64,000 nucleotides of DNA from Prostheceraeus crozeri (lineage: Eukaryota; Platyhelminthes; Polycladida; Euryleptidae), in contig CAJQUW010000932.1 of assembly GCA_907163375.1 (NCBI GenBank), positions 124,001 through 188,000 on the forward strand. The letters are read 5' to 3'. The position numbers and the translations under genes were made by a program. The notes below the pieces were generated by a model. It saw nothing but the letters and a program-made list of their open reading frames with translations, was not told where the DNA came from and did not search any database. Numbering within the stretch: position 1 is the first letter of the stretch; each line of letters opens with the position of its first letter. Below, piece by piece: positions 1 through 63,192 of the stretch.

Positions 1-1607
1 TAGAAAATTATATCATGAAAACTGGAGACGTTTTATCTGGTCCATTGCATCTTTCTATTCTTCCGCAACAAAATACAGAGTTAACAAATAAACAATATGT
101 TGATACACAAATCAATGACTTAAAAGAAAAATATATAAACGATGTTTTGGTTCCACTGATGAATGAATTAAAGTTGCTTAAACTTAATGACAAATCATTA
201 AACGAAAAATTATTAAAACTTGATAAAAAGGATAGAGAACTAGAAGCAGATATAGCAAAACTTTTTAAAAAGATTTCAGAACAATCAAAAATTTTAATAT
301 TACTTTCTATAAATTTTAAATCTGCAGTCATTAAAAATAAACATCAGATACAACTATTGAAAGAACAATTAGAAGATAAATAGAAAAACTACCTGAAAGA
401 ATTAAAAAAAATTAAAGCAGTTACAAACTACATTCCAAAAAAGTGTTGATGAATTAAGTTCTAAAATTACTCAACAAATGAAAATGATGAATAGAATAAT
501 AAATGAAGTAAACTCGCTTAATCAAAAAGTTGATAAAATGAAAACTCTTAAAAATAATTTAGAAAATGAATTAAAGAAAAATTTACAAGAAAACTCTAAA
601 GAAAATAAAGAACAGTTAGATAATGTTAAAAGACAATTACATGTTCTTAAAATTAAGTTAAATGCTCTTAAAACGGCGTTGAAGATTAATCAGGAGAAAA
701 CGCAAGTTAATAGAAAAGAAATTAAAGTACATCACACGCTACTTGACGCAATAGATAAAGTGCAAAAGAAAATTAATAAAGTTATCACGAAGTTGTTGGA
801 CATTCACAAACGTAAGTTGTCTCAAAATATCACTTGGTCTAAGAAGTTTGAAAATTTAGGCAGACGAAAATTTAAGTTGTCTCAAAATATCACGTAGTCT
901 CAATATACCAGAAGATTGTATTCAAAATATTTCTTTAAAAATGGAAGAAACAAAAGTGGATGAAACCGCAAAAATATATCCTTCGTTATCATATGAAATG
1001 AACATCGAAAAGATGAACAAAGAAAAACATAAAGATAGAGTTAGGTATATGAAAGATAAGGAATCTCAATTATTATTAAGATTAGAGCATTATAAAAAAA
1101 TTAAGAAAGAGATGGTCTAATGTTAAGAATGTAACACAAGGAATTGGCATATTCCTAACAATAAGTTTAGGTGCTTTAACAATTGTTATATCTTCAGGTG
1201 TTTTAGTAATTCCAGTAGTTGCTACAGCTTTAACATGTACGGGTGTTTTTGCAACTTCACTTGTTACAATGTTAGATAAATCTTTAATAACTAAGAAACG
1301 AAAATCATTAAAAACTAAGCATTTACATATTAAAGAAGTCTATGACAAATTACATTACTACTTTCAGAGAGTATGTGATGATAATGTTATTACGTTAGAT
1401 GAGATTGAAAAATTTGATCAAATAGCTAATGAAGTAAATCAAATATCATTTCATTTAAAGACCAAAAAAGTTGATGATAAGAATAAACAGGATGGCAAAA
1501 GTTTTAGTGATGGTAAAATTTCTAATGAAGAAAATGATAAAATTTTTTTAGAAGAGCTAAAAACTTTAAGCGAAAATTTAAGCAAAACTTTATTAAACAA
1601 AACTTAA
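1..1607 (+). pseudogene. Fiber-like coiled-coil/membrane protein, broken, 5' end outside window
   Basis: The reading starts with a short glycine/leucine segment and a KQYVD-type motif (near 90-110), a pattern I associate with fiber or tail-fiber N-termini, and then runs into several hundred bases of heptad-like coiled coil rich in Lys, Leu, Asn and Glu. From about 1130 to 1270 it codes a long hydrophobic stretch that could form two membrane helices. It ends with a charged helical domain at about 1270-1607. Frame breaks occur near 378 (one base missing relative to the second copy), near 405, near 895 and near 1105, so it is not translatable as it stands. I infer a virion fiber or spike role from family resemblance; no catalytic motif is visible. 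The first 594 bases recur at 10,878-11,471. Confidence 0.55.
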
Positions 1608-1647
1608 AACGAAAAGATGTCAGACAACAAAGCAATAAAAAAATAAT

Positions 1648-2546
1648 TTGTTCAGTAAAATGTTTTTGCTGTATTCCAATGGTACCACAAAATTCAAATA
1701 TTATGTTTTAAAAATGGATAAAATTAGAGCTGATAATTTTAAAAGAATAAAACAATTAGAAGAGTTAATAAAACAAAGAAATATTATGAAAGAAAATCAT
1801 CTTCAACATAGAATGATAAAAGCTGGTATTCAATCTGATATGTTTGAAAAAATGCAGCAAACCGAGCAAGTAAAAACTGATTTTGAGAAAACTATGAAAC
1901 CATTTAAAACTCTTGAAAAAGAACTTACAAATAATGATAAACAAATTGATATAACAGATCCAGAGCACAAAACTATATTAGATGACTATGGATTACTAGA
2001 ATCAAACATTAATAAGAAATTACCAAAATCTATGCAATTTGAACTTTCTATTTCATTTATAGATGGAAAAACAATACCTAGATTTTATCTCGGACAAAAA
2101 ATATATTTCCACAACCTTTTCGAGGTTTAATTTTTTCACCAGATAAATATCCTTTTAATTTAGATAGAAATTTTGTTGATCTTTTAAGAGGAGCAGATTT
2201 AAATAATTATGCTGTAGAAGATCTCATAAAATATAAAGCTATGTTAGATAGAGTTAAAGCAGGAAAAACTCTTAAACGTTATAGAGAATTAGAAAATTTA
2301 TTATCAGCGGGAGTTAAAGTAGGAAAAGGTTTTAAAACAGAAACAACTGTATTTTTACCAGATGATCCACAAGAATTACTAAATAGATTAAATATTTTAA
2401 TATCGGCAATAAAAGAAGGACATAATTCTAGTTTCAATGAAATTCATGCTATATTGAAAAGACTGTTAGAAAAGAAGATTCTAAATGAAGAGGATTATAA
2501 AAGTATAACGGGACATCGGAGATGTCTTTCAGGGCTTCGCCCGTAG
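1648..2546 (+). pseudogene. Conserved Maverick protein of unknown function, frameshifted
   Basis: Two open segments (to 2130, and from about 2110 to 2546) are adjacent parts of one protein separated by a single frameshift near 2105-2120. The N-terminal part is a charged helical region. The C-terminal part has a short beta-like block followed by a motif of the type N-Y-x-x-E-D-L-x-x-Y-K (about 2205-2240). That layout resembles a family common in invertebrate Mavericks with no assigned role, so I give none. It lies between the fiber-like gene and the penton-like gene, in the same direction, which suggests a virion or assembly function. The 3' end runs into a GC-rich hairpin pair at 2512-2545. 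Confidence 0.5.
2512..2545. repeat. GC-rich double hairpin a
   Basis: Two adjacent small palindromes with three-base loops: GACATC-GGA-GATGTC at 2512-2526, and GGGC-TTC-GCCC inside outer TTCAG/CTGAA arms just after. They stand out against very AT-rich surroundings and sit at the end of the preceding ORF. Similar pairs occur at 4237-4290 and 12,070-12,098. They could be transcription terminators or small mobile palindromes. Confidence 0.6.
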
Positions 2547-2610
2547 CTGAAATATGTTGTTGTTTTTAATTTTTTTATAAAAGATATTTATTCAAAATTT
2601 TAACTAAAAA

Positions 2611-3399
2611 ATGTGTTCAGCAGATTTTGACAAAATTAATAATCATTTAGAAAATTTAACAGAGACTTTGGGTTCATCAAAATTTAGTACGACGTTAAAA
2701 ATTATAACAACTACTTCATCACACACTTGTAATTTAGAACCCATTCTACATTTGGAACAAAATAAAAATTATCAAATTGCATTGACTAGTTTCTCCACAT
2801 TTAACACTATTCAAAACGTTATCAAAGATGTGAATGATCAATTTAGATATTCTACTGATAAAGGCAAAACGTGGAAAATACTAACTTTTCTTCCTGGTTC
2901 TTACGAAGTTGAATCAATATCAAATGAAATTAAGAGACATTTAGGTATACCATTTAAAGATAAGAAACAATTACATTTTGCAGTTGAATCGGCAGTTAAT
3001 AAATTTTCTCTTACTTTAGACGAAAATCATCAAGTTGATTTTAATCATGATAGATCATTGTCAAAGCTATTAGGATTTGATAAACAAACCTATAGTCAAG
3101 GTTATCATTTAGGTGAGAAGATTCCAAAAATAACTGAAACAAATTCAATTGTTGTACATTGTGACATTATTGAAGGAGGATATATAAATGGTAAATTATC
3201 AAATTTAATATTCAGTTTTCCAGCTTTTACTGTACCCATTGGTTATAGATTAAATGTATTTCCACAAACATTAATATATTTTCCTATTACAAGAAAAACT
3301 ATTAACAACATTAACATTAGAATCACTGATGAGAAAGGACAAGAAATAAATTTTGGAGGTGAAGAGATTATGATAGATCTTTTGGTTTGGGAGGTATAA
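2611..3399 (+). CDS. Penton-like / minor capsid family protein
   Basis: An intact 262-residue ORF. A short helical leader is followed by beta-rich sequence, a motif of the form S-L-S-K-L-L-G-F near residue 150-158, and an ending with P-x-x-x-I-Y-F-P-I-T, I-x-x-I-N-I-R-I-T-D and a Gly-Glu-rich terminal strand. This arrangement matches a family carried by many Mavericks and usually regarded as a minor capsid (penton-like) or capsid-associated protein; the structural role is inference. Its ATG is directly preceded by an AT-rich block ending in taactaaaaa. It is the best preserved ORF of this element and lies just upstream of the packaging ATPase, consistent with a morphogenesis cluster. Confidence 0.6.
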   Translation: MCSADFDKINNHLENLTETLGSSKFSTTLKIITTTSSHTCNLEPILHLEQNKNYQIALTSFSTFNTIQNVIKDVNDQFRYSTDKGKTWKILTFLPGSYEVESISNEIKRHLGIPFKDKKQLHFAVESAVNKFSLTLDENHQVDFNHDRSLSKLLGFDKQTYSQGYHLGEKIPKITETNSIVVHCDIIEGGYINGKLSNLIFSFPAFTVPIGYRLNVFPQTLIYFPITRKTINNINIRITDEKGQEINFGGEEIMIDLLVWEV

Positions 3400-3429
3400 A
3401 CTACCACGCGAAGCTAGAGAAGTTTAATT

Positions 3430-3471
3430 TTCTTCTTCTTTTAAAATAAAAATAAAATTTTTTATTAAAAA
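3430..3471 (+). promoter_or_regulatory. AT-rich promoter-like block before ATPase gene
   Basis: The bases before the 3472 ATG read as T-rich then A-rich blocks ending in ttttttattaaaaa directly at the start codon. Very similar blocks precede the starts at 2611, 4362, 10,814 and, on the minus strand, 10,738. Recurrence directly at start codons suggests an element-specific promoter or very short leaders. Confidence 0.4.
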
Positions 3472-4233
3472 ATGAGTGAAGTGCCCCCATTAAATTAAAA
3501 AAAACTCAAATTTAATCATCATCCAAATTTATCTAATAAAGTTTTATCAGTTATTTGTGGAAGATCAGGTTGTGGAAAAACGTATCTATTATTTAAAATA
3601 TTAACGACTCCAAATTTTTTGGATTATAACAATCTTATAATTTATACAACAACAGCAGAACAGCCCGTATATCAATTTTTAAAATATGGATTTGAAAATA
3701 ATCTTAAAAAAACAGCAATTGCTTCATTATTCAAAGAATATGAAAAATCTGAAGATGAAGAAGAAATAAGTTCGTGGTGTGAAGAAGCAGCAAAAAATAG
3801 TCAGTTAGTAGAATCCAATAAAAATAAGCATATAAAGATACAATTAATAGATGATAGTGGTAATATGCAAGATCCTAGTAAACTAGATAAAACAATGAAA
3901 CATTGTGTAATTTTTGATGATTGTGTTAATGATAGAAATCAGTCAGTTCAGAGAAATTATTTCACAAGAGGTAGACATAATAACTGTAGTGTTTTTTATT
4001 TAACACAAAGTATGTATTCATTAGACGGAAGTGTTATTAGAAAGAATGCAAATATATTTATACTATTTGAAATAAATGCAAGAAACTTAAGTGATTTGTT
4101 AAGAGATTTTTGCGTAAGAAATAAAGATGAATTTAAACAATCGTGTAACAATGCTTGGTCAAAAGATTATGGCTTCATTACAATTAATATTGATAAAAAA
4201 ATTCATGATAGTTATAGAAGATTTGTTCACTGA
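3472..4233 (+). pseudogene. Packaging ATPase (HerA/FtsK-like), premature stop
   Basis: The frame opens at an ATG at 3472 and meets a TAA at 3496-3498, then continues in the same frame to 4233. The Walker A motif GRSGCGKT lies about 90 bases downstream of the ATG. A hydrophobic strand ending in acidic residues (VIFDDCV, about 3907-3927) fits Walker B, and the following region with Arg and Gln residues fits the sensor part of Maverick and adenovirus-type genome-packaging ATPases. In the family this enzyme pumps DNA into capsids. Apart from the early nonsense codon the frame is open, so either the gene died recently or an assembly error lies in the A-rich run. A later start could bypass the stop but would sit close to Walker A. 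Confidence 0.75.
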
Positions 4234-4236
4234 CTA

Positions 4237-4290
4237 GCCTTTGGCTCGAGGGGCTTTGCCCCGACTGAAAGTCGATAGAAAATATTTTCG
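4237..4290. repeat. GC-rich double hairpin b
   Basis: Just after the ATPase stop codon there is GGGGC-TTT-GCCCC followed by GACT-GAA-AGTC. An imperfect direct repeat (ggagtgatcgaac, ggagtgaccgaat) follows up to about 4318. Same style as the other GC-rich paired hairpins in this AT-rich element. Confidence 0.55.
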
Positions 4291-4361
4291 TGGAGTGATC
4301 GAACGGAGTGACCGAATAATTTTTTCTTATAAATTTTTTATTAATAAAAATAAAAAAAAAT

Positions 4362-4883
4362 ATGTTGAATGCTTACAAGATAGAACATGTACCAGTTTTA
4401 AAACATCCTACAAATCCTGTAAATTCGAAGAAAGAAGTTAGATTTTATCATCATCATAAATACGTAGCGCTCATTACAGATTATAAAACAAAACATGGTA
4501 TTAAACCGTGTGTTAAAACAAAAGACTTTCCACTTTGTTTAAGAAGTTTCCGAGTATTTTTGTCGTATAATAATTTATGGTGGTTGGTTAAGAAAGAACA
4601 TTTAACAACACATGAATTAGAAACATTACATCAATTACATATTCCTGGAACCGAGGTTCTATGTAAAAATTCATTTTTTCTTTTAAAAAATATGAATCGT
4701 GAAATGTCTCTCGGACAAACGTCTAGGATTGATGAATTAATCAAGAAACAAATTGCAGAGTTTGATGCGCAAATTAAACATAGTAAACGTATTAAAAAAC
4801 AGAAACGTACTAGGCGTAGTATTAGACGTAATATTAAAAAACAAAAGTGGAACAAAAGAAATATTAGAAACTCCTATTACTGA
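4362..4883 (+). pseudogene. Basic protein, probably N-terminal part of the polymerase gene
   Basis: A 173-residue reading that opens with an ATG after the recurring AT-rich start block. I do not recognise a family. The first 120 residues have a mixed alpha/beta look with several His and Trp residues; the last 50 are strongly basic (Lys/Arg). Near 4845, in an A-rich run, the coding character passes to the frame of the downstream DNA polymerase, so the two segments are probably one gene separated by a one-base shift. If so, this would be the region ahead of the exonuclease domain, where protein-primed polymerases can carry accessory or terminal-protein sequence; that assignment is speculative. 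Confidence 0.45.
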
Positions 4884-6767
4884 TATCTTTTTTGATGATA
4901 GAATTAAGGATGAGCTTGGTAATGATTTATGTAATTTATTTAATCCAAATGAAATTAAATATGAAAATGTATCTTTTATTAATGTAGTAAATGATATGCG
5001 GAAACTTTTAGCAAATGGTAAAATTATTAATTTACTTGGAAAAGTTGTTAAAGATCAGGAAAATATAATTCAAAATCTTTACGTAACCTTCTATAATAAA
5101 AATTCATTTGAAACATGGTTTTCGAATCTGGATGAGAAATCCGATGCTAACGAATGGATTTTTACAGGTGATATTAAATATGAAGATTTTGGAATGAAGT
5201 TAGTACAAAGATCGTATAGAGGGGCAGGGATTAATATGAAATATAGAATCAAAGAATATTTCGGTGAATATTGTTATATTCCTTCTGAAGATTTTTGTTT
5301 TATTAAATGTTATAATGTTTTACGAGGTATTAATGAAGAACAAGGAGAAATGATGAAAGAAATGTTTAATAATTTTTTATATAAAGAGAAAGCCACATCT
5401 AGAACAAGAGTAATGTCAAACTACAAATTTTCTCAATTCAATAAATATTTTGGAGAATGTGTTCAATATTATAGTCCTGCCAATCGTCATTTAAATCCTA
5501 GAGGAATTGAAACGTTTCATAATTATGTTTATTACAATTATTTTCACGAAGGTTCAACAATTGGACACTATTGTTTAATTAATAAATTTCATAAATTAAA
5601 AGCTATTAGAGAAATTGAAAATAATTTCAAACCCATATATAAAACAGTTACTGATGAAAATCTAACAACGCGTCCATATAAAATCATAACAAAGAAAAAA
5701 ATTGACTATGGTTCAACATATATTTGGGATCTCGAAACTTTTCCTGATCCTAACTGTTCAACAGCTCATCCTATTCCTTATGCTGTAGGAGCTATTAATT
5801 TTAATAGGTTTATATGTTGCTTACCGAAAAAAAGATTGAAAGAATTAGAAACACGTTTGTTAAGTGATATGATTAAAATTAAACGATCAAAAGATGAAGA
5901 TGAAATTAAAAAACTTAAAAAACAGATTAATGAGTATAATAATTTCACTGAATTAGAATTTAATAAACTTCAAAATTGTGTGAAAATATTTACGAGAACT
6001 GAGGATGATGAATGTCCGATCGGGGGAAACCCAGAGGACGTATGTCCGATCCATCAATTTTTCAAAACTCTTGGAAAATTTAATTATTCGAAAGTAACTT
6101 TAATAGCTCACAATTCATCAGGTTTTGATTCCTATTTTCCAATAAAAGCTAATTTTAAATTATCTAAACCGCCTCTTAAAACTTCAAGAGGAATATTGAC
6201 TGCTTCATTACAAAATCCTTATACAACTCAATGTGTTAGTAGATACATTCAAAAATCTTTTAGATTTAAAAACAATATGAAAAAAATTCACCTTCAGGTA
6301 AATTAGCACTTCAAACTATTATAATGAAATGTAGTTATCAACATGTAAAAACAAGTCTTTCTAAATGGCGTGAGAATTTTAAAATTCCTACGAATGTGTG
6401 TAAATTAAATTATGAAATTGGAGACTTAACACATGAAAATTATAAAGAAAAAGAAAATGAATGGAGACCATATTTAGTTAACGATATTCTTTCTTTAGCT
6501 TTTTGTATCTACAAATATAATAATGTTATGCGAGATTTAGTTGGTGAAGATATAACTACTAATTTAACATCCTCCGCTTTAACATTTAACGGTTGGATGA
6601 AAAGCGTACAAAATGACAATATAACTATTCATTCTCATATAGATTTATGGGCTAGAAATTATATTAGAAAATCTGTTACAGGTGGAAGAGTTTCAGCAAA
6701 TATAAGAAAATACATATCGCCATTTTGTAACATCTTGTTACCAATATTAAAACAGTATTTACCTGGT

Positions 6768-6832
6768 CGCTGCGCTGGGGGTACTTTGTCCCCTGGTCGC
6801 TACGCTGGGGGGACTTTGTCCCTTGGAAGTAA
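6768..6832 (+). repeat. Tandem 31 bp GC-rich insert inside polymerase ORF
   Basis: Two near-identical 31 bp units, each with cctggtcgct at the start and ending ctttgtccc, sit between the Exo III and motif A regions. The second contains GGGAC-TTT-GTCCC. They are translated in frame as a Gly/Pro/Arg-rich peptide unlike the Lys/Asn/Ile-rich surroundings. This looks like insertion of a small GC-rich palindromic element into coding sequence. Confidence 0.6.
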
Positions 6833-7720
6833 TTTAATAGATTTAATGAAACAGTATCGAGATTTAGGATAAAACTGAAATTTGTAAGAAAATTTCAAAT
6901 CAACTACTTGAACAAAAAAAATGAATTTCTAATGGCTTTTGATGCAACATCTTTATATCCATCAGCTATGTATGATGAAAATTCAGAATACCCTAAAGCT
7001 GAATCAGCTAGAAAATTTCGTCAAGAAGAAGAACGAGAAATAATATCTAAATTTAATTCTCAAACATTTAGACCTAAAACTGGAATATTCTCTGTTGTGT
7101 TTCAATATCCGAATGATATGTTTTTCGAACCAGTTCCTATAAAAGATAAAGTTAAAAATCAAAATAATAATTCTCATGTAAAAGTAATCAGGTTTAGAAA
7201 TGGTATATGTTATGATGTATTAACTTCTGTAGACATACAAGAAATTGTTAGATGTGGTGGAAAAATCTTACATATTACTGATGGTATAATTTATGAAAAA
7301 AATTATCAAGTTTCACCATTTCGAAATTATATTGAAAAAATTTTTAATTTGAGAAAAAAATATAAAACAGAAGGAAATACTGTAGGCGATGAGTTAATTA
7401 AATTATTGATGAATTCACTATATGGAAAAACCGTACAAAAAGATATAACCACTAAATATCATTTATGGAATGAGAATACATTGAGAAAAAATTTCACTCA
7501 AGAAGTAAAAGATTATGAAAAATTAAATGATGAACAATATTTAGCGAAAGTAGAAATGGAAGATGATGAATTTCTCAAAACTAATATTGTAAAAGATGGG
7601 AAGACGTCATTCATGCCATCACACTTAGGTTCTTTCATTCTTTCTCACTCTAGAAGAATCATGAATAACTTTATTTTAGAAATTAATGGTTTCAACGAAA
7701 AATACATTCATTATACAGAT

Positions 7721-8770
7721 TCAGTAACAGCTGACACGCCTGTAATATTGAGAAAGAATAATTTATTATTTATTTCTAGAATAGATAGTATTGTAAACAA
7801 CTATAAAATTAATCCGTTTGAAATTAATGGTGATATGAAAGAAATTTCATTTGTCGATAATTTAGAAATTTATACTCATAATGGATGGAGAAAAGTAAAA
7901 AAAATTATTAGACATCTTACAAATAAAAGTATTTATCGAATAAGAACAAAAATGGGAATAGTAGATGTTACTGAAGATCATTCATTGTTAGATGAAAGAG
8001 GTAATGAAATAAAGCCACAAGAATTAAATATAGGAACAAATTTACTACATAATAAATTATTTTTAGACGACAATACAATCACATTGAAACAAATTGTAAG
8101 TGATATTTATGTTAATGATCCACCTAATTTAAGATGTAAGCAAGCATTTATAGAAGGGTTCTTTTTAGGAGATGGCTCTGCTGGAATCTATAATTATGAA
8201 TCAGGAGTCAGATATTGTTGTACTTTATATAACCAAGATCTTAACCTCTTAATTAAATTAAAAACATATTTTAATGAAGTCTATAACAATGATTGTAAAA
8301 TATATGATACAATGAGATCATCTAGGGTATACAAACTAAAATTTCAAAATCCAAAACAATATGCCACATACTTTAGTGAAAATTATTATAATCAGTTTAA
8401 AGAAAAACGTGTTCCTTGGTATGTTCTAAATGCTGAATATAATATTAGATATTGGTTCTTTGTTGGATTTTATGCAGCAGATGGGGACAAGAAATCTTTT
8501 TTTACAAGGAAATATGCAACTATTCGTTTCACACAGAAAAATAAAGAAACCTTTAGTGGTTTATACAATTTGGCATCATCTCTAGGTATTAATTTGGTAG
8601 TAAGCGAAAGACAAGATAAATCATTATGCTTTAGTGCGTGTCAAGTTAAAAATAATATTACCAAAGATGTCACCACTGTAAGATATTTAAATAATAAACC
8701 ACAATATGTTTATGATATTGAAACAGAAGATGGCACATTTAATTGTGGTTTTCCATTAATTGTAAAAAAC
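7721..8770 (+). other. Intein with LAGLIDADG-type homing endonuclease in PolB motif C
   Basis: A 350-codon in-frame segment splits motif C exactly between its two Asp-containing halves. It begins with Ser followed by VTADTPV (splicing block A), has VTEDHSLL (block B, with the Thr and His of the TxxH motif), two endonuclease motifs (FIEGFFLGDGS at about 8146-8178 and FVGFYAADGD at about 8459-8488), then VYDIETEDGTF and a C-terminal Val-Lys-Asn before a Thr +1 residue (blocks F and G). The Ser1, terminal Asn and Thr +1 nucleophiles needed for splicing are present; the usual penultimate His is Lys. Both endonuclease motifs keep the acidic residue, so cutting activity is possible. The segment is uninterrupted, unlike its host gene. 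This is the classic polymerase motif C intein site known from giant viruses and archaea. Confidence 0.88.
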
Positions 8771-9262
8771 ACTGATTCAATATACATTTCTAATGAACTC
8801 TTCAATAAATTAGATGCTGCTGGATATTTTGGGGGAGAATTGTGTCAAGGAAAAAATGATTATGGAAATGGTGGAATTATTTTTGCAATGTTTATTGCTC
8901 CTAAAATAAAATATTGTATTACTGTAGATGAACAAGGGAGACTTACTGAAAAGAAAACATTCAAAGGATATTCACAAGATAAAGTAAAAGTAGAAGATTT
9001 TCTAAAATTATATTCGGGGAAAACATTATCGACTACAGTTAATAAACCATGGAAAAGATCTTTAGAAACTGGAATTAGTATTCCTGATAAAAATAATAAT
9101 ACTTAAGAAAAAAATTCTCGGGTCAAATAAATATTCTTAAACGTCAAGCACCTGATGAAAATGAAATTATGTTACCTTATAACGGAGAAGATATTCAAGT
9201 TGAAATATTTCAAACAATCGTCTGTGAGAGTAATTTAAGTGATGATGATGACAAGTGGGAAT

Positions 9263-9384
9263 AATAATTTTTTCGTTACATCTAAAAACTTATTACATTT
9301 AAAAATTTTATAACATCTAAAAATTTTATTACATATGAAAATATATTTATCATATAACGTTTTATCACATTAAGTTTTATCATA
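9263..9384. other. Short AT-rich intergenic region
   Basis: Between the polymerase tail and the convergent minus-strand gene lie repeated motifs of the kind acatctaaaaa and cattaagttttatcat. No coding sequence is seen. It may hold transcript ends for both genes. Confidence 0.4.
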
Positions 9385-10738
9385 TTAAGTTTTATCATAT
9401 AACGTTTTATCAAAAGATAATTTAAATTTATTTTCACTAACTATTGATTCTTCTTCATCATCATCATAAATTGATTCTTCATCATCATCATAAATTGATT
9501 CTTCAACATCATAAATTACACTTTTTGGTATAGGATGCCATTCCCTGATAGGATACCATTCCCTGATAAGAATATCTAATTCCAAATTATATTTATTATT
9601 TGATAATAATATAATAGGGAAAAATATTGGTCTTTGATCTCTTTTGGAAAATTTAATAACACCACCATAATCTGAATCATTTTTAGTTTTTATTAAAGAT
9701 GATAAAATTTTAAATTGATTAGATGTAAATCCTAATTTAAATTTTGTAGACCGACACATAGTTGTCTAACAGTATCTTCAACTATTCCATCATTATTATT
9801 TTCAATTGTAAGAAAATGAAATTTAGATAAATTTTGATTATATGTAGTATTAATATCATGTTGAGATATAAATTTTTCTTCACTTAAATTTTTATAATTA
9901 CTAATATTTTTATAATCTTTTTTATCATTTACACCTTTTTCAGATGTTTCAGAATCACCATCTATATTATCATCATCTATATTATTATCATTATTATTAT
10001 TATAAGATTCTTTAAAATTATTATGATTATGGTCATTGTTAATAGTATAAGGTGTAGTCCACATATAATTTTTTTCTTGTTGTGACAACCCATTTATATA
10101 AGATTTTAACAAATTAATATTTAAATTTGAATATAATCCTATATATGTATCATCATCATATCTGTGGCATTTCTAATGTTTCTTGTTTATAAATTGTGTC
10201 TCTATAATAAACTTGGCACAATAATTCTTCGTGATGTTTTTTACTCTCTATGTGAATGTTATATCTGTTTTGTTCATCAACAAATAATTTTATTTTTTCC
10301 TTTAAAAAAAGATTTTAATTTTTTAACTAATTCTTTAATATTGATATAATTGATAATTTTAGTTTCTATCCAATCAGTATTACTAATTGGTAATACTGCT
10401 CTAATAAAACCATAAACATTATTATGACCAATAATAACCATATTTTCTTTGTTTAATTCAACATAAGCCACATCATTATATTTGCTTACAATATCCATAA
10501 ATTTTATAAATGGATCTCCCGGAAAAATACAATAGTTGGTTTCTATAGAAGGTAAACCTTTTGCTTGTTCTCTAAATATTTCGGCTTGTAATTCAAATAA
10601 AATTTTTACATCTATACATGGATTATTATTATTATTATTATTATCAAAACATTTATTTTCAAATCCCGTTGATCTCGTCGAATAAGAAGAACAGGATGAT
10701 GCGGGCGAATATAATTTTTTTAAATTTGGTTTTTCCAT
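9385..10738 (-). pseudogene. Unknown Asn/Asp-rich protein, frameshifted
   Basis: Three consecutive minus-strand open segments (10,738-10,277, 10,112-9,732 and 9,759-9,385) look like pieces of one gene. The start at 10,738 follows the same AT-rich block seen before other genes of this element. The first piece has a Ser-rich start, an Asn homopolymer (AT-rich trinucleotide repeat near 10,622-10,645) and a globular region. The second is Asn/Asp-rich and low complexity. The third contains a small tandem repeat (taggatgccattccctga, twice near 9530-9565) and a terminal acidic Asp/Glu repeat. I do not recognise it. It is transcribed away from the second fiber-like copy, sharing a 75 bp divergent promoter region. 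Confidence 0.45.
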
Positions 10739-10813
10739 TTTTTTATTTTTATTAGAAAAAACTTTATTTTTTTATTTTTATTAGAAGAAATTTTATTTTT
10801 TTATTGTTAAAAA
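10739..10813. promoter_or_regulatory. Divergent AT-rich promoter region
   Basis: Seventy-five bases separate two divergent start codons (10,738 minus and 10,814 plus). Both sides carry ttttttattg/tta-type blocks; the internal unit tttatttttattagaa is repeated. The minus-strand leader reads taataaaaataaaaaa directly before ATG, the plus-strand one ttgttaaaaa before ATG. Confidence 0.45.
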
Positions 10814-11480
10814 ATGATGTTACCAAATGTTGGTGGAGGTGCATATATCCCGAATAATCGTGAATTAGAAATAGAAATAGAAAATTATATCATGAAAACT
10901 GGAGACGTTTTATCTGGTCCATTGCATCTTTCTATTCTTCCGCAACAAAATACAGAGTTAACAAATAAACAATATGTTGATACACAAATCAATGACTTAA
11001 AAGAAAAATATATAAACGATGTTTTGGTTCCACTGATGAATGAATTAAAGTTGCTTAAACTTAATGACAAATCATTAAACGGAAAATTATTAAAACTTGA
11101 TAAAAAGGATAGAGAACTAGAAGCAGATATAGCAAAACTTTTTAAAAAGATTTCGGAACAATCAAAAATTTTAATATTACTTTCTATAAATTTTAAATCT
11201 GCAGTCATTAAAAATAAACATCAGATACAACTATTGAAAGAACAATTAGAAGATGAAATAGAAAAACTACCTGAAAGAATCAAAAAAAATTAAAGCAGTT
11301 ACAAACTACATTCCAAAAAAGTGTTGATGAATTAAGTTCTAAAATTACTCAACAAATGAAAATGATGAATAGAATAATAAATGAAGTAAACTCGCTTAAT
11401 CAAAAAGTTGATAAAATGAAAACTCTTAAAAATAATTTAGAAAATGAATTAAAGAAAAATTTACAAGAAAAATTAAATTG
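10814..11480 (+). pseudogene. Second copy of the fiber-like gene, 5' part only
   Basis: The ORF opens with an ATG at 10,814 directly after the promoter block and gives the full N-terminus missing from the first copy, including a Gly-rich start and the KQYVD-type motif. From 10,878 to 11,471 it matches window bases 1-594 with only about four differences. It stays open past the site where the first copy has a deletion (near 378), but breaks in an A-run near 11,290. The match stops at 11,471, and the coiled coil ends in an attaattaattaatt low-complexity patch. It is a truncated paralog, so it gives the gene start but not its function. Confidence 0.55.
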
Positions 11481-11600
11481 AAATTAATTATTAATTAATT
11501 AATTATTATTCTTTAATTGAAATTAAAGAAACTAAAGATGGTTCTGGAATATATCTAAGTCCTAGTATGATTCGGTAAAACTTTTATTTTATCTTTTAAA

Positions 11601-12891
11601 ATGAATTCTACAAATTCCGACAATTTAATTAAATTAAAAATTGCTAATTTAGATTTATTAAATTATCTATTAAACAAATAATAACTCAAATTGTAAAATT
11701 TGTGAAGGTAACGACATACAAAAAAACATTAGAAAACTTTCCTGGTTTTATTTGGAGTAAATATTCGAAAGAGAAACATTTACCCGGTCATTCATATACT
11801 GGCCCAGGAACTCGATTAGATATAAGACTAGATGAGAATAATAATCCGAAACCAGGTGAAGAACCAATAAATAGAGTAGATGCCGCAGCTTACAGGAATG
11901 ATTTAGCTTATCGAAATCATGATCTAAGTTCTCGAAATGAAGCAGATAAGAAGATGATTCAAGAATTAGATAGTATTCAAAATCCTTCCTTTAGAGAAAA
12001 AATTGAAAGAATGTTTGTTAAGAAAGCTTTACAAGCTAAAATATTATTCGGTCAGGGTTTAAATGAAACGACAGCAAAGCTGTCTGAGAGCAACGCTCGA
12101 ACCAACGCGTCTGAAATTCATAGGGAATATAGAAGGCCTAAATATTTATTGAAAGTAAAAGTATTTAATTAAGATGATATTTGGAGTGCTGATCTTATTC
12201 ATATGCCGAATGAAAAAGATTATAAATACGCATTGACCGTTATAGATTTATATACACGATACGCTTGGGTAAAGCCTTTAAAAAATAAAAGTGGTCTATC
12301 AGTTAAATATGCGTTTGAAGAAATCTTTAAAGAAACTAATAGAAAGCCAAAAAATTGTTTGTTGATAAAGGGTCGGAATTTTATAACGGAAATGTTCAAC
12401 CACTATTTGAAACTGTGTATTCAACTGAAAATGCAGGAAAAGTGGTAGTGATAGAAAGATTCAATAGATCATCAAAAAATAAAATTTTCAAAAAATTTAC
12501 TCAGCAAGAAAATCAGAAATGGTTGAAGATATTACCAGGAGTTGTAGAAGAGTATAACAATAAGATTCATTCAGGTATTGAAGAAACCCCAAAGAATGCT
12601 TCTGACGACCCTGATTTAATCCGAAAGAAAATATTCGAAAATAATTATTCGAATGAGAGTAATCCGAATTTACAGAAACGTAAGCCGACATTTAAAATTG
12701 GAGATAGAGTTAGAATATTTAAGTATAAAAATAAATTTGAAAAAGGCTTCGTCGGATACTGGACGAAAGAGATATTTGAAGTTTGTAAAATAAATCAAAC
12801 TTATCCGATTACTTACGAAATCAAAGATTTAGATGATGAAAATATCAGACGTCGATTTTATCAAAATGAATTACAACGAAGTGATTTTTAA
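11601..12891 (+). pseudogene. Phospholipase A2-like domain joined to retroviral-type integrase, frameshifted
   Basis: From 11,702 the reading carries a parvovirus-type phospholipase A2-like region: the calcium-loop motif YTGPG (about 11,794-11,808) and a VDAAAYRND-LAY block where the catalytic His-Asp pair would be, here Asn-Asp. This continues into an rve integrase core: Asp in SADLIH (about 12,190), Asp in VDKGSEF (about 12,357, in a shifted frame) and Glu in ERFNRS (about 12,454), then an SH3-like C-terminal domain with IGDRVRIFK. A stop at 12,172 and shifts near 12,355 and 12,430 break it. A likely start is the ATG at 11,601. The integrase would insert element DNA into the genome. The lipase-like part could help membrane escape, but the changed His makes that doubtful. 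Confidence 0.75.
12070..12098 (+). repeat. GC-rich double hairpin c inside PLA2-integrase gene
   Basis: GACAGC-AAA-GCTGTC (12,070-12,084) and GAGC-AAC-GCTC (12,088-12,098) are adjacent perfect hairpins with three-base loops. They lie in the linker between the lipase-like and integrase domains and are translated in frame. They match the style of hairpin pairs a and b. Confidence 0.55.
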
Positions 12892-12913
12892 TTATCATTA
12901 TTTATTATTGGAA

Positions 12914-13354
12914 CTAACGTTTCGGGAATGAAATTCCCTTGTTCAATTCTAACATAATATCAAGAAATGGTACTCCTTTTTGTAATTTGTACAAAACATA
13001 AAGACATAATTGACCACAATAAGTAGTTCCTGGTTTTTGAATTTGAAATGTATTATAAATTCCATTTCCAAGTAATTCTTTGACTTCGTTTGTAGGTGGA
13101 AGTCCATAAGAGTCGAAGTAGTAGTTATCTCCATTTTTATTAGACGTACCTGCAGACCAATGTACTCCTTTTTCATCTGATGTGTGAAGATTTGTTATGC
13201 AATTTATAGTTGGCTTATTTTTTAGGAATTGTAATTCGTCTCTCATCAATATGTGAAAATTCTTTATTCCCAATTGATTTGCGATTTTCTTTAGATCAAA
13301 ATTTGTAGTTGTTTGCGTTCCATATAATTTTAAAAACTCATTTATGTTGCTCAT
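12914..13354 (-). CDS. Adenain-like cysteine protease (maturation protease)
   Basis: An intact 146-residue ORF with the catalytic layout of adenovirus-type proteases: His65 in GVHWSAG, Asp81 in YYFDSYG, and Cys113 in TYCGQLCLYV. In Mavericks and adenoviruses this enzyme cleaves virion precursor proteins during maturation. Length is close to other Maverick proteases, which are shorter than the adenoviral one. It is convergent with the integrase gene, with 22 bases between the two stops. The start is the ATG at 13,354; its upstream region carries a small GC hairpin (CCCCT/AGGGG, about 13,380-13,400). The N-terminal part and promoter are duplicated just upstream. Confidence 0.85.
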   Translation of the reverse strand: MSNINEFLKLYGTQTTTNFDLKKIANQLGIKNFHILMRDELQFLKNKPTINCITNLHTSDEKGVHWSAGTSNKNGDNYYFDSYGLPPTNEVKELLGNGIYNTFQIQKPGTTYCGQLCLYVLYKLQKGVPFLDIMLELNKGISFPKR

Positions 13355-13785
13355 TTTATAATTAAAACATTTCTTAAGGGACCCCTAGAAGTCAGAAGGG
13401 GGGGTATTGATTTAAAACTGTCCCATAATGATGACTTTCCTTACTACTTATTCGATTTTGAAATGATTTAATTTAATCTAAATTAAAACGTTACATTGTA
13501 AAAAATCGGTTTATTAGCAGAGTTAGTGCTTGCTCATCTTTAATCAACTGCAATTCATTTCTCATCAATATGTGAAAATTCTTTATTCCCAATTGATTTG
13601 CGATTTTCTTTAGATCAAAATTTGTAGTTGTTTGCGTTCCATATAATTTTAAAAACTCATTTATGTTGCTCATTTTATAATAAAAAATTTCTTATAGGGA
13701 CCCCTAGAAGTCAGAAGGGGGGTATTGATTTAAAACTGTTCCATAATGATGACTTTCCTTACTACTTATTCGATTTTGAGATGAT
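13228..13785. repeat. Direct duplication of protease promoter and N-terminus (about 317 bp period)
   Basis: Bases 13,228-13,467 are repeated almost exactly at 13,545-13,785, including the protease start, the GC hairpin upstream of it, and about 80 bp of further upstream sequence. Confidence 0.75.
13491..13673 (-). pseudogene. Truncated second protease start
   Basis: A 60-residue minus-strand reading repeats the first 41 residues of the protease with one change and then runs into unrelated sequence before stopping. It lacks all three catalytic residues, so it is a partial copy created by the local duplication. Its upstream sequence is the duplicated promoter, so it may still be transcribed. 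Confidence 0.65.
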
Positions 13786-13933
13786 TATATTATAATTATT
13801 CTAATCTATATTGTTTTACATATTTCCATTTTCTTCATGAACTTCTCAAAATGAATTAGAAAAAAACTGAGTTGTAGATGGTTCTTGAATCACTGATTGC
13901 TTGCTTGCTTTTCAGATGTAGTTGTCCACAAAA

Positions 13934-14359
13934 TCATTTGTCTTGAATGGCTTGCAATTGTGATGTCTCTTCATCTTGAGTTGATGATGTTCCCGGTTGT
14001 AGATTTAAAACTATTTGACTTGTTTTCATTGTCTTATTATAATAATCGGTCTCAAGTTGTTCATCAAAAGAACGCTTCATTCTCGCCGTTTCACGTTTCA
14101 CAATATATTGATTTTGTAAAGTTCTTCGCTTACGTTCTAATGCGGCAGCGCCTTTAACTTCGTTTAAAATTCGCTGTGATATTTCACACGACGTCAAGAA
14201 ATCATCAAAATCAATATCACTAAAGTTTTCCAAACTTTTTTGTAGATCCACAGTATTTATGAAATGATTCTTCTTTAAAAATTCGTTGATCAGGCACACT
14301 TTTTTTGCGATTTGTCCTTTTGTCGTTTCAATACGATCACTCAAATGTTTACTCATCAT
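13934..14359 (-). CDS. Unknown helical protein
   Basis: A 141-residue ORF, starting at MMSKHL, predicted mostly helical and charged, with a Ser/Thr/Gln-rich acidic C-terminus. There is no motif I recognise. It lies upstream of the duplicated protease start on the same strand and ends about 150 bases from it. Amino-acid use is less Asn/Lys/Ile-biased than its neighbours. It may be an early or regulatory gene of the AT-rich element. Confidence 0.45.
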   Translation of the reverse strand: MMSKHLSDRIETTKGQIAKKVCLINEFLKKNHFINTVDLQKSLENFSDIDFDDFLTSCEISQRILNEVKGAAALERKRRTLQNQYIVKRETARMKRSFDEQLETDYYNKTMKTSQIVLNLQPGTSSTQDEETSQLQAIQDK

Positions 14360-14999
14360 GAATGATAGAAATGAATTAAAATAAACTATCTAATACTCCT
14401 TGAGAGAAGAACTTCATTCGTTAATGTGCTTCATTGTTAAAGTGATTGTTTAAAATTGCTATAACAACTATCTTGCATATCGGCTTTGCCCTTATGCGTT
14501 CTAAATTCGCAATAAAAATTGATTTTTTATTATCACCACACCCGCATGTGTTCTCAATTCACAAGAAGAATTGCTTTTTATTGCTGCCCGTATGTATTTT
14601 AACCTATTCATGTGGAAACAGGAAACGCTAAATGAATTTTGCAAATCGATTTCTAAAACTGAATTTGAAACCAAACTTTGAAAACAGATATTGAAAAATG
14701 TTTCTGAAAATAATTTACGTACGGGTAAGTTGAAATGTCAAAACTTTTACGCACGCGTAAATTGAAATGTCAAAATTTTACGGATGCGTAAATTGAAATG
14801 ACAAGAGATTCCACGATAATTTTAGGGGAAAGCTGCTCTTCAATCTCTGTCTCTCTTGAATTATCAGCCAGTGTACGGGTTCATTGAATAATTTTGAGTT
14901 TATGAGTTACAATGATCTTCTAGTTCACACAATCAGTACTTTAAATAATGTTGAGAATACAATAACTAAGAATGTCTAAGTAATAATTGCGTCTTCTTA
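14360..14999. other. Non-coding AT-rich stretch with hairpin repeats
   Basis: No convincing gene is seen. At about 14,715-14,800 three related units of about 31 bp (ending taaattgaaatgtcaaaa or close) contain hairpins such as TTTACGC-AC-GCGTAAA. Near 14,460-14,600 a weaker repeat of about 70 bp has ATG-rich and CCCGCATGTG-type parts. Confidence 0.45.
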
Positions 15000-15230
15000 A
15001 TTTATCATAATGCTCTAATCTTAATAATAATTGAGATCCATTTCACTTGTTTTTAATTGAAATAACGAAGGATATATTTTTGCGGTTTCATCCACTTTTG
15101 TTTCTTCCATTTTTAAAGAAATATTTTGAATACAATCTTCTGGTATATTGAGACTACGTGATATTTTGAGAGAACTTAAATTTTCATCTGCCTTAATTTT
15201 CAAAATTCTTAGACCACGTGATATTTTGAG
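15000..15230 (-). pseudogene. Inverted fragment of the fiber-like gene
   Basis: The minus strand from about 15,200 to 15,000 repeats plus-strand bases about 868-988 nearly exactly and, after an internal deletion, about 1058-1110. It encodes the segment just before the membrane region of the fiber-like protein. The two copies face each other across about 14 kb, so the AT-rich element is bounded by inverted pieces of one gene. They may mark a terminal inverted repeat or a rearrangement. Confidence 0.6.
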
Positions 15231-15450
15231 ACAACTTAAATTTTCGATTACGTGATATTTTGAGACAACTTAAATTTTCGATTACGTGAAATTTGGAGTC
15301 TACCTAAATTTTCGATTACGTGAAATTTGGAGTCTACCTAAATTTTTGAAATTTTGATTTTTTTTTGAAAATTTGTCACTACCTAAATTTTTGCCCTTCG
15401 GCCTTCGCCCACGTGAAATTTGAAGTCTACCTAAATTTTTGAAATTTTGA
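15140..15450. repeat. Short tandem array, about 34 bp units
   Basis: Units resembling cgtgatattttgagacaac ttaaattttcgatta repeat from about 15,152, then drift into cgtgaaatttggagtctac ctaaatttttgaaatttt variants to about 15,450. The same unit occurs inside the fiber-like gene at about 810-900, so the array seems to have grown from coding sequence. Confidence 0.6.
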
Positions 15451-17473: not shown

Positions 17474-18812
17474 ATTTGCAACCGAATTATCGTCATCGGA
17501 TGAGGATGTTGGAGACGACGTGGTGTGAAATGTGTTAACATGTCCTGAAATGTGTTAACAACAAATTTATTTTAGACTAAAGGAAGTAGTACTTTTTGTC
17601 AACTGTGAGTCAGTTGTCTGTTCAAGTTAGCATTTAGAATTGACTGCACTTACCTCAAAATCACTCAAAGTCTCATCAATAAATTCTCGAGACTTGGGGA
17701 CTTTCTTAGGTACTCGGGACTTGGGGGCTTTCTTTGCCTCTGGCTCGTCCACCTGTGAGAGCACGCCTTCAGTCGGCCTTTCCTTGGCAAGTAGCCTCTC
17801 CAATTTATTTTTCTCTGCCTTGGAGGTATAGTCCGGCAGCCAGAACGAGTTTCTGCAGGGAACGTGGCCGAAAGTGAGACTTTCATAGAATGATGTACAC
17901 CCTATGACTACTACGAATCGGCACGTCTGCCGAGTTCTAGTGAGTTCCTCTTCTTGTCAGACAAGATCAAAGAAAAACACATGTAAATCCAATGGAACGC
18001 AGATTGCAGTTTTCGGCTAAAACGAAATTTTGTATGTTTTCTCTGATTAAACAAAAAGTATTAAGCCCAGAGTCATAATTTTTGTCATTGAATGTCTTCA
18101 GGTCATTTCCTATGATGTGCATGTGCTTTTGTCACGCATCTAATCGGCAATGTATGCGAGAATTTGGTTGAATGTGGATAAAGTTGCTCAAAATGTTTGT
18201 GTTTGCCGAAATTAATAGGCTCGCCAAATCTAAATGAGTTTAGCTATATAGACAGGGGTGCATGAAAGTGAAAGGAAATGACCTGAAGACATTCCATGCC
18301 AAAAATTATGACTCTGGGCTTAGTACTTTTCGTTTAATCAGAGAAAACATACAAAATTTCGTTTTAGCCAAAAACTGCAATCTGCGTTCCATTGGATTTA
18401 CATGTGCTTTTCTTTGATCCTGTCTGACAAGAAAAGGAACTCACTAGAACTCGGCAGACGTGCCGATTCGTAGTAGGCTTAGGGTGTACATCATTCTGTG
18501 AAAGTCTCACTTTCGGCCACGTTCCCTGCAGAAACTCGTTCTGGCTGCCGGACTAGTAAGGTTGATGCCTTTCCGGGAATTCTGTTGGGCAGAGGGAGTA
18601 TGTTTGGCAATGAAGGCCTTTGCTGAGTCGCTGTTTACCTTGTCGTTGCTCCTCTCATATGTCTTGCAGATTAAACAATAGAGGTACGTGAAATCTTGTT
18701 TGAATGTGCAGTCTTTGTGACCACTCTTGTTGGCATGTCGAACAGGCAGTCGGCATGTTTCATAGTAGTGAAAGATCAGCCGTTGTCGCGCAATACTTTC
18801 ATGTCGGACCAT
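17474..18812 (-). pseudogene. Spliced gene interrupted by a MITE; Cys/His-rich N-terminus
   Basis: The minus strand opens with an ATG at 18,812 and codes a region with C-x6-H...H-x2-C...C-x2-C spacing that could bind zinc. It is then cut at 18,556 by a foldback MITE. Beyond it, 17,832-17,654 codes a Lys/Pro/Glu-rich segment with a good donor (GAG then gtaagt at 17,653), and a further candidate exon lies at 17,544-17,474 between canonical acceptor and donor. Frames across the MITE do not join cleanly with a single TA, and exon phases do not all agree, so the exon model is tentative. It lies upstream of the polymerase fragment on the same strand. I do not recognise the product. Confidence 0.4.
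17833..18555. mobile_element. Foldback MITE, about 280 bp arms, TA target
   Basis: Inverted arms of about 280 bp (17,833-18,115 and 18,275-18,555) are highly similar, with a spacer of about 160 bp. The ends read GTCCGGCAGCCAGAACGAG and its complement and are flanked by TA on both sides, as for Tc1/mariner-type insertions. There is no internal coding sequence, so it is non-autonomous. Confidence 0.8.
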
Positions 18813-54100: not shown

Positions 54101-56519
54101 ATAAGAAAAATTATCTCGTACACTTATGCATACTAAAATTCTATTTAGAAATGGGCATGCTTCTAAAGTCAGTTCACCGCATTGTCAAATTTAGACAGAA
54201 AGCCTTCCTCAAACCCTACATAGATAGTAACAGTCAAAAACGTGCACTCGTCCAAAATAATTTTGAAAAGGATTTTTATAAATATAAGAATAACAGTCTT
54301 TTCGGAAAGACCATGGAGGATGTTAGAAAACGTATGAACTACAAACTAGTCGTTGATGAACAAAAATATCACAAATTGACCTCATCACCTCTTTTCATTG
54401 ATGGAGACATCATCGATGAGGATCTTGTAGGTGTTAAAATGATAAAATCAGAAGTTGAGTTGTGCAAACCCATCTACAGGGTGATCATAAAGTCGCTGTA
54501 GGGTTTAATTGCCAAATATGATAGAGTTCAATAACTCCTAGAGGGTGTATATAAGAATAAAGTATTAACCAATATCATAAATTTAATGAATAAAACATAA
54601 AATTGTATTATCGACTTTTTCAATTTGCCAAATTCAAATTAAATTCAATTAAATATTTTGACCGATAAAAATACATGCATTTCATATAATTACCTCCTAT
54701 CCATGGATCATTTCAATTCTAAATGAAAACTTTCGGTAAAACTCCACTTTTCTCAAGCTTTAATGTATCTAGATCCTAAATTTTTCAAACCAAAGGAAAG
54801 AAATTTCAAAATAAAGTCATTGTTCAGCGGTCTTACCACGATTGTCAATGCACTGTTGGGGTCGTTTCCGGAAAGAACTGATGGCATTGCGGCAAATGCG
54901 GAGGTGATTTCTGAACTTGGTGATCAAATGCTGTCTTTCAGCTGTTGTAAACTTCTCGGTTGTGAGACAGACACTTTATTTTTCAAGAATCCCCAAACAA
55001 AAAAGTCAGGAAATATCAGGAGACATAGCGGCCCACAACATTCGTCCGAAAAAATAATTTTATCGAAGAAGTCTTCATCTTCGTAGGATTTTTGCAGTAA
55101 ACTCTCACCCATGCTGACTCGCAATCGTCTTCGTGTAGCCCTTGTGTTACTTGCAATTTGTTAGGAAAGAGCCCTAGATCATGTCTCACTACAGTGTGAA
55201 CATAACCGTAAGAACAGCTTGTAGCTGAAGCTTCTTGGCGAATTGATGTTGAGGGTTGTTTTACGAATAATCTCGGAGATTTGCTTTGGCTTCTTATCAT
55301 CGAATGATGGTCGACCACCTCTTTATACATCTTTAAAGCCTCCAGTATCACAAAATCTCTTGAAAAGATTTCTAATGGAATTCTCATGAGGAACATTATT
55401 CCATTTCCGATTTTGTAATTCTCTTCTAACACGGTTTACGGATTCAAATTTTGCCATCAAACAACATGCGCTGCTGAACATCCATTTTGGAACTGATTTC
55501 AGTCACCTTCTTAAAAAGTCTGTCGAATTAAAGATTCTTTAGGGCGAAATCCTGATTGGTCGCAGTGTCATACGCCTGAATTTCCTCACAAAGAAGACGT
55601 AGCTGCGTTACTTGTGTGCAAATGTGAGCGTATGAAATTCATGCATTTCGTGCTTGATTACGATGATCATATAATAGCTTTATAATGCCTTTTTCATCCT
55701 GACAACTCGAAAACCTCAAATTGAATTCAGTTGGCCTTTTCATGTCATAAAACAAAACTTTAAGTCAAAACTTTAAGTCATGCTCTTTTCATTTTCATAA
55801 GTAGTTATCGTTTAAACTCACTCACTTTTCATGTATAGTGAATTGTAATCCCACAGTGACTTTATGATCACACTGTATATTGGGCAAGCCGTTTTAGATT
55901 ATTCTAAACTTGAAATGTATCAACTCTTCTACAAAATATGAAAACCATGCCCTCTCGTAAAAGAGGTTCGCTTGCTGGGTGGTGATACAGATAGTTTCTT
56001 TTTAGGAATTACCACTCAAAAAGATTTAAATTTAATGAAGTAGGCAAGTCATTAGAAAAATATTTCGACACATCTAACTACAATCCCACTCATCCACTCT
56101 ATTCCATACAGAATAAAGCCAAACTTGGTTGTTTTAAGGATGAAACAGCAGGAAAGGAAATAGATGAAATGATTCTCCTCCGTCCTAAAATGTATTCCAT
56201 GAAATTAAAAGAATGTGCAGATAGTATTAAGCGGGCTAAAGGTATATCAAAATCCATTGTTCATAAAATGAAACATCGGTCCTATAAGAAGGCCTATAAA
56301 AATAAAAATATAACGTTTGTCAATATGACAATCTTAAAATCTCAAGTTCATACTGTGAAAACGTACACGTTCAAGAAACGAGCACTTTCAGCATGGGAGG
56401 ATAAGAGGTGTTGGATAGGACATAACACATCTCTTCCACATGGACATCCTGACACAAACATACCTCCACCCAAAAGAATAAAACTCACGCTACCACATTC
56501 AGGAGATGTATTGACATAA
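51145..56519 (+). pseudogene. polB: Zinc-finger protein-primed DNA polymerase B, spliced, mariner-interrupted
   Basis: The start is the ATG at 51,145, immediately followed by an intron (51,148-51,214); exon 2 is 51,215-51,275 and a second intron is 51,276-51,334, after which the main frame is phase-correct. Domains in order: two C2H2 fingers (about 51,385-51,590), a third Cys/His finger (about 52,456-52,520), Exo I YADIEC (about 52,612), an endonuclease VII-like RDHDHITGKFR with Cys pairs (about 52,870-52,975), Exo II FHNFKGYDSHM (about 53,008), Exo III with LELDVILLVD (about 53,493), motif A YDQNNLYG (about 53,767), motif B NNSLFGKT (about 54,291), motif C GGDTDS (about 55,986), and the C-terminal domain to 56,519. 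It is disabled by a TAA at 53,857, the 54,477-55,875 transposon, and shifts near 55,920-56,040. Confidence 0.88.
54477..55875 (-). mobile_element. Tc1/mariner transposon inside polymerase gene
   Basis: 1,399 bp with inverted ends CAGGGTGATCATAAAGTC and, at the right, CAGTGTGATCATAAAGTC in complement, both flanked by TA (54,475-54,476 and 55,876-55,877). The minus strand carries decayed transposase pieces: helix-turn-helix and linker with VHTVVRHDLGLFPNKLQVTQ (about 55,275-55,216), and the IIFSDE catalytic block (about 55,060-55,040) followed by a deletion. The host polymerase frame is continuous on both sides if the element and one TA are disregarded. Confidence 0.85.
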
Positions 56520-56639
56520 TCAACTTTAACTCAGTATTTTGATGTTGCTTTTGTAGATATACATGGTTGTTTTATGTATCGCATGAGATCGTTTCTTCCT
56601 TGTGAATATATGCCTACAGTCAGCTCATTCCCCCTATAT

Positions 56640-56697
56640 CTGTGAAAAGACTTTTTCATATACATATTTTTATTTCAATAAACATATCACAATGACT
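56640..56697. terminator. Convergent poly(A) signals
   Basis: AATAAA on the plus strand at 56,677-56,682 serves the polymerase gene, and on the minus strand at 56,674-56,669 serves the convergent structural gene that ends at 56,698. The signals overlap within 15 bases. Confidence 0.65.
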
Positions 56698-59675: not shown

Positions 59676-59689
59676 CTTTGCATAACATC

Positions 59690-60046: not shown

Positions 60047-60063
60047 TCAGACTACCACGCACC

Positions 60064-60929: not shown

Positions 60930-60960
60930 AAAACAATTTTTCCAACATGATGTTTTTATT
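60921..60960. terminator. Convergent poly(A) signals
   Basis: AATAAA on the plus strand at 60,925-60,930 overlaps the TBP-like stop codon; AATAAA on the minus strand at 60,960-60,955 overlaps the protease stop region. Very compact gene ends. Confidence 0.6.
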
Positions 60961-62693: not shown

Positions 62694-62695
62694 GA

Positions 62696-63151: not shown

Positions 63152-63192
63152 AGCTCAAACCCTAAACATTGTTAGTTACAACTTTGCATGAA

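Follow-up and report, generated by a model that had tools for sequence, protein, structure and literature searches.

A putative homing intein in the DNA polymerase of a multicopy animal Maverick element

A stretch of 64,000 nucleotides of animal DNA, hereafter the window, holds at 7721-8770 of its forward strand what is almost certainly a complete class-1 intein of 350 amino acids with a two-motif LAGLIDADG endonuclease. It interrupts the DNA polymerase (PolB) of a Maverick element. From sequence comparisons we give a probability of about 0.75 to its being a homing intein of a multicopy invertebrate element, spreading by non-allelic homing together with transposition of the element itself. Its host is a transposon of an animal nuclear genome, in which copies with the site occupied and copies with it empty are both numerous.

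The residues of class-1 splicing are all present in the sequence (Ser1, Asn350 and Thr+1), and so is a block B of the TxxH type (TEDH); the predicted fold is of the HINT type. The two LAGLIDADG motifs carry the acidic residues D151 and D254 and are accompanied by a predicted endonuclease fold; the Pfam profile LAGLIDADG_3 matches the endonuclease part. The structure was predicted with a pLDDT of 93.1, and the top matches of a structure search with this model are intein/HEN structures, I-DmoI among them. The original prediction, a full-length 350-codon intein with a LAGLIDADG endonuclease, is thereby upheld. Its details are likewise found in the sequence: Ser in first place, the TxxH block B, two GDG/ADG motifs and Val-Lys-Asn before Thr. 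The profile search that it proposed for 7721-8770 gave supporting matches, LAGLIDADG_3 among them. Judging by its residues, the intein is likely to be competent for splicing.

Table 1 Features of the window, with their positions and the evidence for each.
Feature	Position	Strand	Evidence
Packaging-ATPase-like ORF	3619..4233	+	PHROG terminase large subunit, 3e-4 (weak)
Upstream piece of the polymerase, parted by a break	4753..6306	+	95.9% identity to P0094 over 483 aa
Middle piece of the polymerase, parted by breaks	6324..6872	+	DNA_pol_B_2, 7.1e-11; 89.6% to P0094
N-extein piece of the protein-primed DNA polymerase, intein in frame	6908..7720	+	DNA_pol_B_2, 2.4e-21; 96.7% to P0094
Insertion point in polymerase motif C, YTD / TDS	7720..7721	+	Unbroken YTDTDS in empty relatives
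Intein, 350 codons, intact	7721..8770	+	Profile matches, model, structure matches, sequence
Block B, T84-E-D-H87 (splicing)	7970..7981	+	Sequence and copy alignment
First LAGLIDADG motif, FIEGFFLGDG, with D151	8147..8176	+	Sequence and copy alignment
Second LAGLIDADG motif, FFVGFYAADG, with D254	8456..8485	+	Sequence, copy alignment, Pfam LAGLIDADG_3
C-terminal splicing blocks, YVYDIE...FPLIVKN, Asn350 last	8705..8770	+	Sequence and copy alignment
C-extein piece, begins Thr+1-Asp-Ser, stops early in this copy	8771..9106	+	97.3% to P0094
Maverick-type integrase piece	12355..12891	+	Match to the second Maverick's rve+chromo integrase (37% identity, E 7e-35)
Protease-like ORF (assumed)	12914..13354	-	Match to the corresponding ORF of the second Maverick, E 3.5e-7
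Uninterrupted motif C (GDTDSF) of the second Maverick, other polymerase lineage	55984..55995	+	

We propose the following course of events. The polymerase would first be produced as a precursor that contains the intein. Ser1, the TxxH histidine, Asn350 and Thr+1 would then bring about self-excision, joining YTD to TDS and restoring motif C. The endonuclease would cut polymerase genes with an uninterrupted motif C, and repair from an occupied copy would copy in the intein with some of its flanking DNA. The targets would be dispersed copies of a transposon rather than one allele, so that the intein would spread by non-allelic homing and be a parasite of a genomic parasite; in addition, it would be carried along by the element's own transposition.

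The polymerase gene of the window is fragmented (4753-6306, 6324-6872 and 6908-9106) and ends prematurely 3′ of the intein. The ORF 6908-9106 is the intein's own frame, and its residues 5-228 match DNA_pol_B_2 at 2.4e-21; with 7.1e-11 for the middle piece, these matches agree with the predicted Maverick polymerase and mark it as a protein-primed PolB. An uninterrupted polymerase of 1168 residues with an empty site, P0094, is encoded on a 4744-base JGI metagenome contig, and its reading continues past the point where the window's C-extein ends. The identities to P0094 in Table 1 were computed piece by piece, each polymerase piece being searched apart. Among the best 120 of 355 relatives found with the N-extein, motif C is uninterrupted in 115 (104 by a strict pattern, 11 by eye), five end before it, and none holds an intein. 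That empty relatives read YTDTDS without a break is in line with the predicted split between YTD and TDS. Lottia gigantea (a limpet) and Macrostomum lignano (a flatworm) are the named polymerase relatives among the matches listed. An occupied relative, P0035, lies on a 2021-base ENA contig; its identity is 94% across the 67 C-terminal residues of the intein and 90% across 111 C-extein residues. A 30-bp tandem repeat within the polymerase (window 6762-6826) encodes PGR(C/Y)AGGTLS repeats, and the piece in question is 10 residues longer than that of P0094.

The assembly searched comprises 2,048,925,868 bases in 14,165 contigs. An N-junction pattern of 30 bases, with at most three mismatches, occurs 588 times in it, and the reversed control not once. 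A protein search gave 116 scored intein copies (the best 116 of 1176 first-look candidates), which are 90-100% identical; 84 of them have no internal stop, and some copies hold an open frame spanning the lengths of polymerase and intein. The site is empty in at least 150 places (150 scored of 3253 candidates, with a 103-residue P0094 probe across the site), each of them uninterrupted and identical to the probe over all 103 residues. P0094, 96.7-97.3% identical to the window's exteins, thus equals 150 places of the host over this length, yet it derives from a metagenome; either animal DNA in that sample or particles of the element may account for its presence there.

The copies read comprise 68 that are occupied (L001-L068) and 13 distinct ones that are empty (L072-L084); L069-L071 are the places of L073-L075. 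Both junctions are present in 67 of the 68, and the one copy lacking this was set aside before the counts that follow. Of these 67, 54 have an intein that keeps the frame and contains no stop, and 13 a broken one; the 810 nt of N-extein are stop-free in 31 and the 330 nt of C-extein in 53. Intein and both flanks are all open in 21, so the predicted picture of an intact insert in a broken gene applies to the window's copy and fails as a general rule. The occupied copies were picked by intein score, which favours intact inteins, and for this reason we draw no inference that the intein is better kept across copies than its host gene. In the 52 intact copies of exactly 1050 nt, S1, H87, D151 and N350 are invariant; T84, D254 and K349 each vary once (51 of 52).

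Over 62 rows, among them broken copies, the pooled pairwise dN/dS amounts to 0.27 and 0.28 for the exteins, 0.64 for the intein and 0.54 for its endonuclease part. Six of 68 aligned rows (L025, L057, L031, L045, L038 and L047) were dropped for poor flank alignment. The intein appears to be under weaker constraint than the exteins, and the constraint on the endonuclease to be only moderate. For the first 110 intein codons dN/dS is 1.3, with dS very low at 0.019. This dS (window 7721-8050) compares with 0.06-0.08 elsewhere and is some four times lower than in the exteins and the endonuclease; it could reflect either conversion near the N-junction or another constraint.

The block linked to occupancy is one-sided, reaching 25 bp upstream of the site and about 208 bp downstream. 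Net divergence between occupied and empty copies stays at 0.000-0.011 per 90-bp step across 810 bp upstream; downstream it is 0.063 in the first 90 bp, 0.03 to +270 and 0.001 at +271..+330. When 62 occupied copies are set against 13 empty ones, frequencies differ by more than 0.9 (near-fixed differences) at 9 of 1140 positions (-25, +15, +33, +45, +63, +136, +144, +198 and +208); the stretches -810 to -26 and +211 to +330 have no such position. Eight of the nine fall in the 330 bp downstream (hypergeometric p 3e-4, for windows chosen after the data were seen). Six are silent and three change an amino acid, two of the latter (-25 and +136) lying within the empty-site protein probe. The 13 empties are the top matches of a protein probe across the site, a narrow sample that is protein-identical from -117 to +192; their silent differences are not due to the choice of probe, and their low diversity may be.

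Trees of the two flanks indicate that the two sides of the site have differing histories: monophyly of the 13 empties is rejected in the N-flank (AU p 0.0023), and in the C-flank they form a single clade (SH-aLRT 100). The empties nonetheless cluster in the N-flank tree, which needs only 2-3 state changes. Upstream of the site, variation is common to occupied and empty copies, and the empties sit inside a wider diversity of occupied ones. Longer flanks (8 occupied and 4 empty copies) again show low upstream divergence; a single fixed difference lies at -1050..-901. Past +450, net divergence goes up again in places (0.011-0.058), with four fixed differences, in poorly aligned and very variable sequence.

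A block from -25 to +208 amid shared variation is as expected of homing with co-conversion, as seen with 13 narrow empties. The linked block could also come from ordinary recombination or from the amplification of two subfamilies, and we give homing among dispersed copies in this genome about an even chance. The silent changes in empties might alternatively confer resistance to cutting; only +15 is near a likely recognition site, and co-conversion fits better. The coexistence of occupied and empty copies and the block at the site are signs of spread, in keeping with the selfish insert originally predicted.

The endonuclease may instead be past its active life and the intein a passenger, the block then recording an old conversion or the loss of inteins by conversion from empties. 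Its only moderate constraint (dN/dS 0.54) would agree with this, as would the broken inteins of 13 of 67 copies and the place of the empties, upstream, within the wider diversity of occupied copies. A passenger would hardly be expected to keep both catalytic aspartates in 51-52 of 52 intact copies, and most aligned relatives that cover both LAGLIDADG motifs also keep both. We regard a spent endonuclease as unlikely, while giving it some weight.

Had the intein entered the element once and then only been copied along, subfamilies with and without it amplifying separately and no homing taking place here, the two types should differ over the whole gene. Near-fixed differences are absent from -810 to -26 and from +211 to +330, net divergence upstream does not exceed 0.011, and in the N-flank monophyly of the empties is rejected (p 0.0023). 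Both types are numerous, as separate amplification would have it; the empties cluster in the N-flank tree with 2-3 changes and form one clade in the C-flank, and a few differences occur far from the site as well. Altogether, we regard separate subfamilies as unlikely.

Turning to descent, at least one junction lies at the same motif-C residue in 90 of 92 intein matches, the pattern sought being of that form only. The intein tree was built from 48 inteins; 45 of 93 proteins were left out, being shorter than 225 or longer than 480 residues after cutting. The window intein forms a clade (100/99, the bootstrap not fully settled) with 13 inteins of a second Polinton PolB lineage, here lineage B. 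By its insertion residue and by common descent in this tree, it belongs to the family of PolB motif-C inteins known from giant viruses. The lineage B inteins, in 24 proteins among P0002-P0038, occupy the same residue, are 39-49% identical to the window intein and mostly have 'FNCGFPLIVHN' endings; the N-exteins of P0004 and P0018 have no BLAST match better than E 0.7 to the N-extein of the window. Sister to the Polinton inteins are four others (99/92): P0014 and P0015, which carry PF00136 like the polymerases of giant viruses and on which the label 'giant-virus-like' rests, and P0019 and P0039, pieces without PF00136. The giant-virus-like PolB inteins of the sister rows are 37-43% identical to the window's.

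Two readings offer themselves: the intein moved between polymerase lineages, or it is an ancient insert that has changed far less than the polymerase. We favour movement, because viral inteins are the next relatives. That the intein both drives through a genome-wide animal transposon family by non-allelic homing and has crossed between polymerase lineages that BLAST cannot align seems to us an open bet, with equal odds either way. In P0036 (242 residues, from an NCBI source), the end of an intein shows 45-48% identity to that of the window and runs on into TDAFILKL; between the sequence after this end and the window's C-extein there is no significant match.

A recent and direct transfer from a giant virus of the host is very improbable. 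Giant-virus-like PolB inteins at the same site are indeed the next relatives outside Polintons, yet the window intein groups with the 13 lineage B inteins (100/99), on long branches and with 47% identity at best. A recent giant-virus donor was rejected on the grounds that P0035 (94%, the same element) is the only intein above 80% identity among the 92 matches. A tblastn search of IMG/VR viral contigs, in which records near the window's genome may be absent, gave no relative. The original prediction had seen a recent invader, possibly from a large DNA virus. Spread among the element copies here does look recent; a recent viral source is not supported, since the nearest inteins besides P0035 are in another Polinton PolB lineage (100/99). 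The phylogeny with viral PolB inteins that it called for places the giant-virus-like ones next (37-43%), with Polinton lineage B closer.

The inteins at motif C of NCLDV PolBs (phycodnavirus, Pandoravirus and others) resemble the window's in their YxD/TDS site, Ser1, a VTEDHS block B and a (K/H)N ending followed by T. In BFVD, too, the named proteins whose structures match best are NCLDV PolBs (a phycodnavirus, Pandoravirus hades and Marseillevirus LCMAC103). The hosts differ: a PF00136-type polymerase in NCLDVs, and here the protein-primed PolB of a transposon with hundreds of nuclear animal copies. The VMA1 intein PI-SceI and the archaeal PI-PfuI and PI-PkoII have the architecture predicted for the window intein, a HINT splicing domain with an inserted LAGLIDADG endonuclease. 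They home at one allele, whereas the targets here would be dispersed copies of an element.

A passage of PMC11071308 reports homing-endonuclease domains at differing positions in polinton pPolBs and suggests that inteins invaded there; for the insertions it cites Jeong 2023, on nematode polintons. As endonuclease domains in polinton polymerases they are like the window's, and polinton inteins are, on the strength of that passage, known in principle; unlike the present data, it gives no site, copy number or homing test. In the sections of PMC5784728 on the subject, the eukaryotic inteins catalogued are from fungal nuclear, algal chloroplast and viral genomes, and the metazoan mention concerns Hedgehog-type Hint domains. 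Within excerpts of the open-licence full-text literature, nothing that we found describes occupied and empty copies dispersed through a single animal genome, or homing among such copies. The earlier remark that metazoan claims are very few is in part superseded by the polinton pPolB insertions of PMC11071308. If the intein does drive through the transposon family in this way, a selfish element lives on a selfish element, with very many replicate targets in a single genome. The coexistence of occupied and empty copies makes homing, co-conversion tract length, endonuclease decay and cost to the host element measurable within one genome. Virus-like Polintons suggest themselves as a route for giant-virus-type inteins into animal genomes.

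An inverted pair (813-989 / 15062-15238) may mark the termini of the intein-bearing Maverick, and the window probably begins inside an array. A direct repeat (window 1-608 and 10878-11487, 98.5% identical, spacing 10,877 bp) and a second occupied intein junction on this contig, 10,824 bp before the window's own (C751:120882 and 131706), at like spacing, suggest a head-to-tail array of the element. Neither the integrase piece nor the ORF at 12914..13354, which we take to be protease-like, has a Pfam match of its own at E 0.01, and no capsid gene was identified in the part of this Maverick within the window. A second Maverick (51301-63999) has a broken polymerase, an rve+chromo integrase and an uninterrupted motif C; its polymerase belongs with the second lineage (36% to P0018, 1.6e-31).

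The GC content is 26.9% over the intein-bearing element (window 1-15400) and 38.6% elsewhere (15501-64000), changing at about 15.4-15.5 kb. Misassembly, or microbial or viral contaminant DNA in an animal assembly, might produce such a contrast, but this explanation has a negligible probability and is rejected on copy number and dispersion: the copies number in the hundreds and lie on many contigs, the longest of those read measuring 1.58 Mb. A Pao peptidase (Pfam, 3e-23) in the window likewise speaks against it. The 588 junctions on these many contigs sustain the predicted location in metazoan nuclear DNA. The Pao peptidase marks a retrotransposon type of metazoans. The single COX1 match in the assembly (8 candidates scored) contains in-frame TGA, and 17 of its codons are AGA where Ser stands, several of these presumably at conserved positions; AGR read as Ser is a mark of invertebrate mitochondria. 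Together, the COX1 code and the Pao peptidase support an invertebrate genome. Rfam and tRNA scans of the 64-kb window gave no match. A 295-bp inverted repeat lies at 17829-18555, its arms 95% complementary and 137 bp apart.
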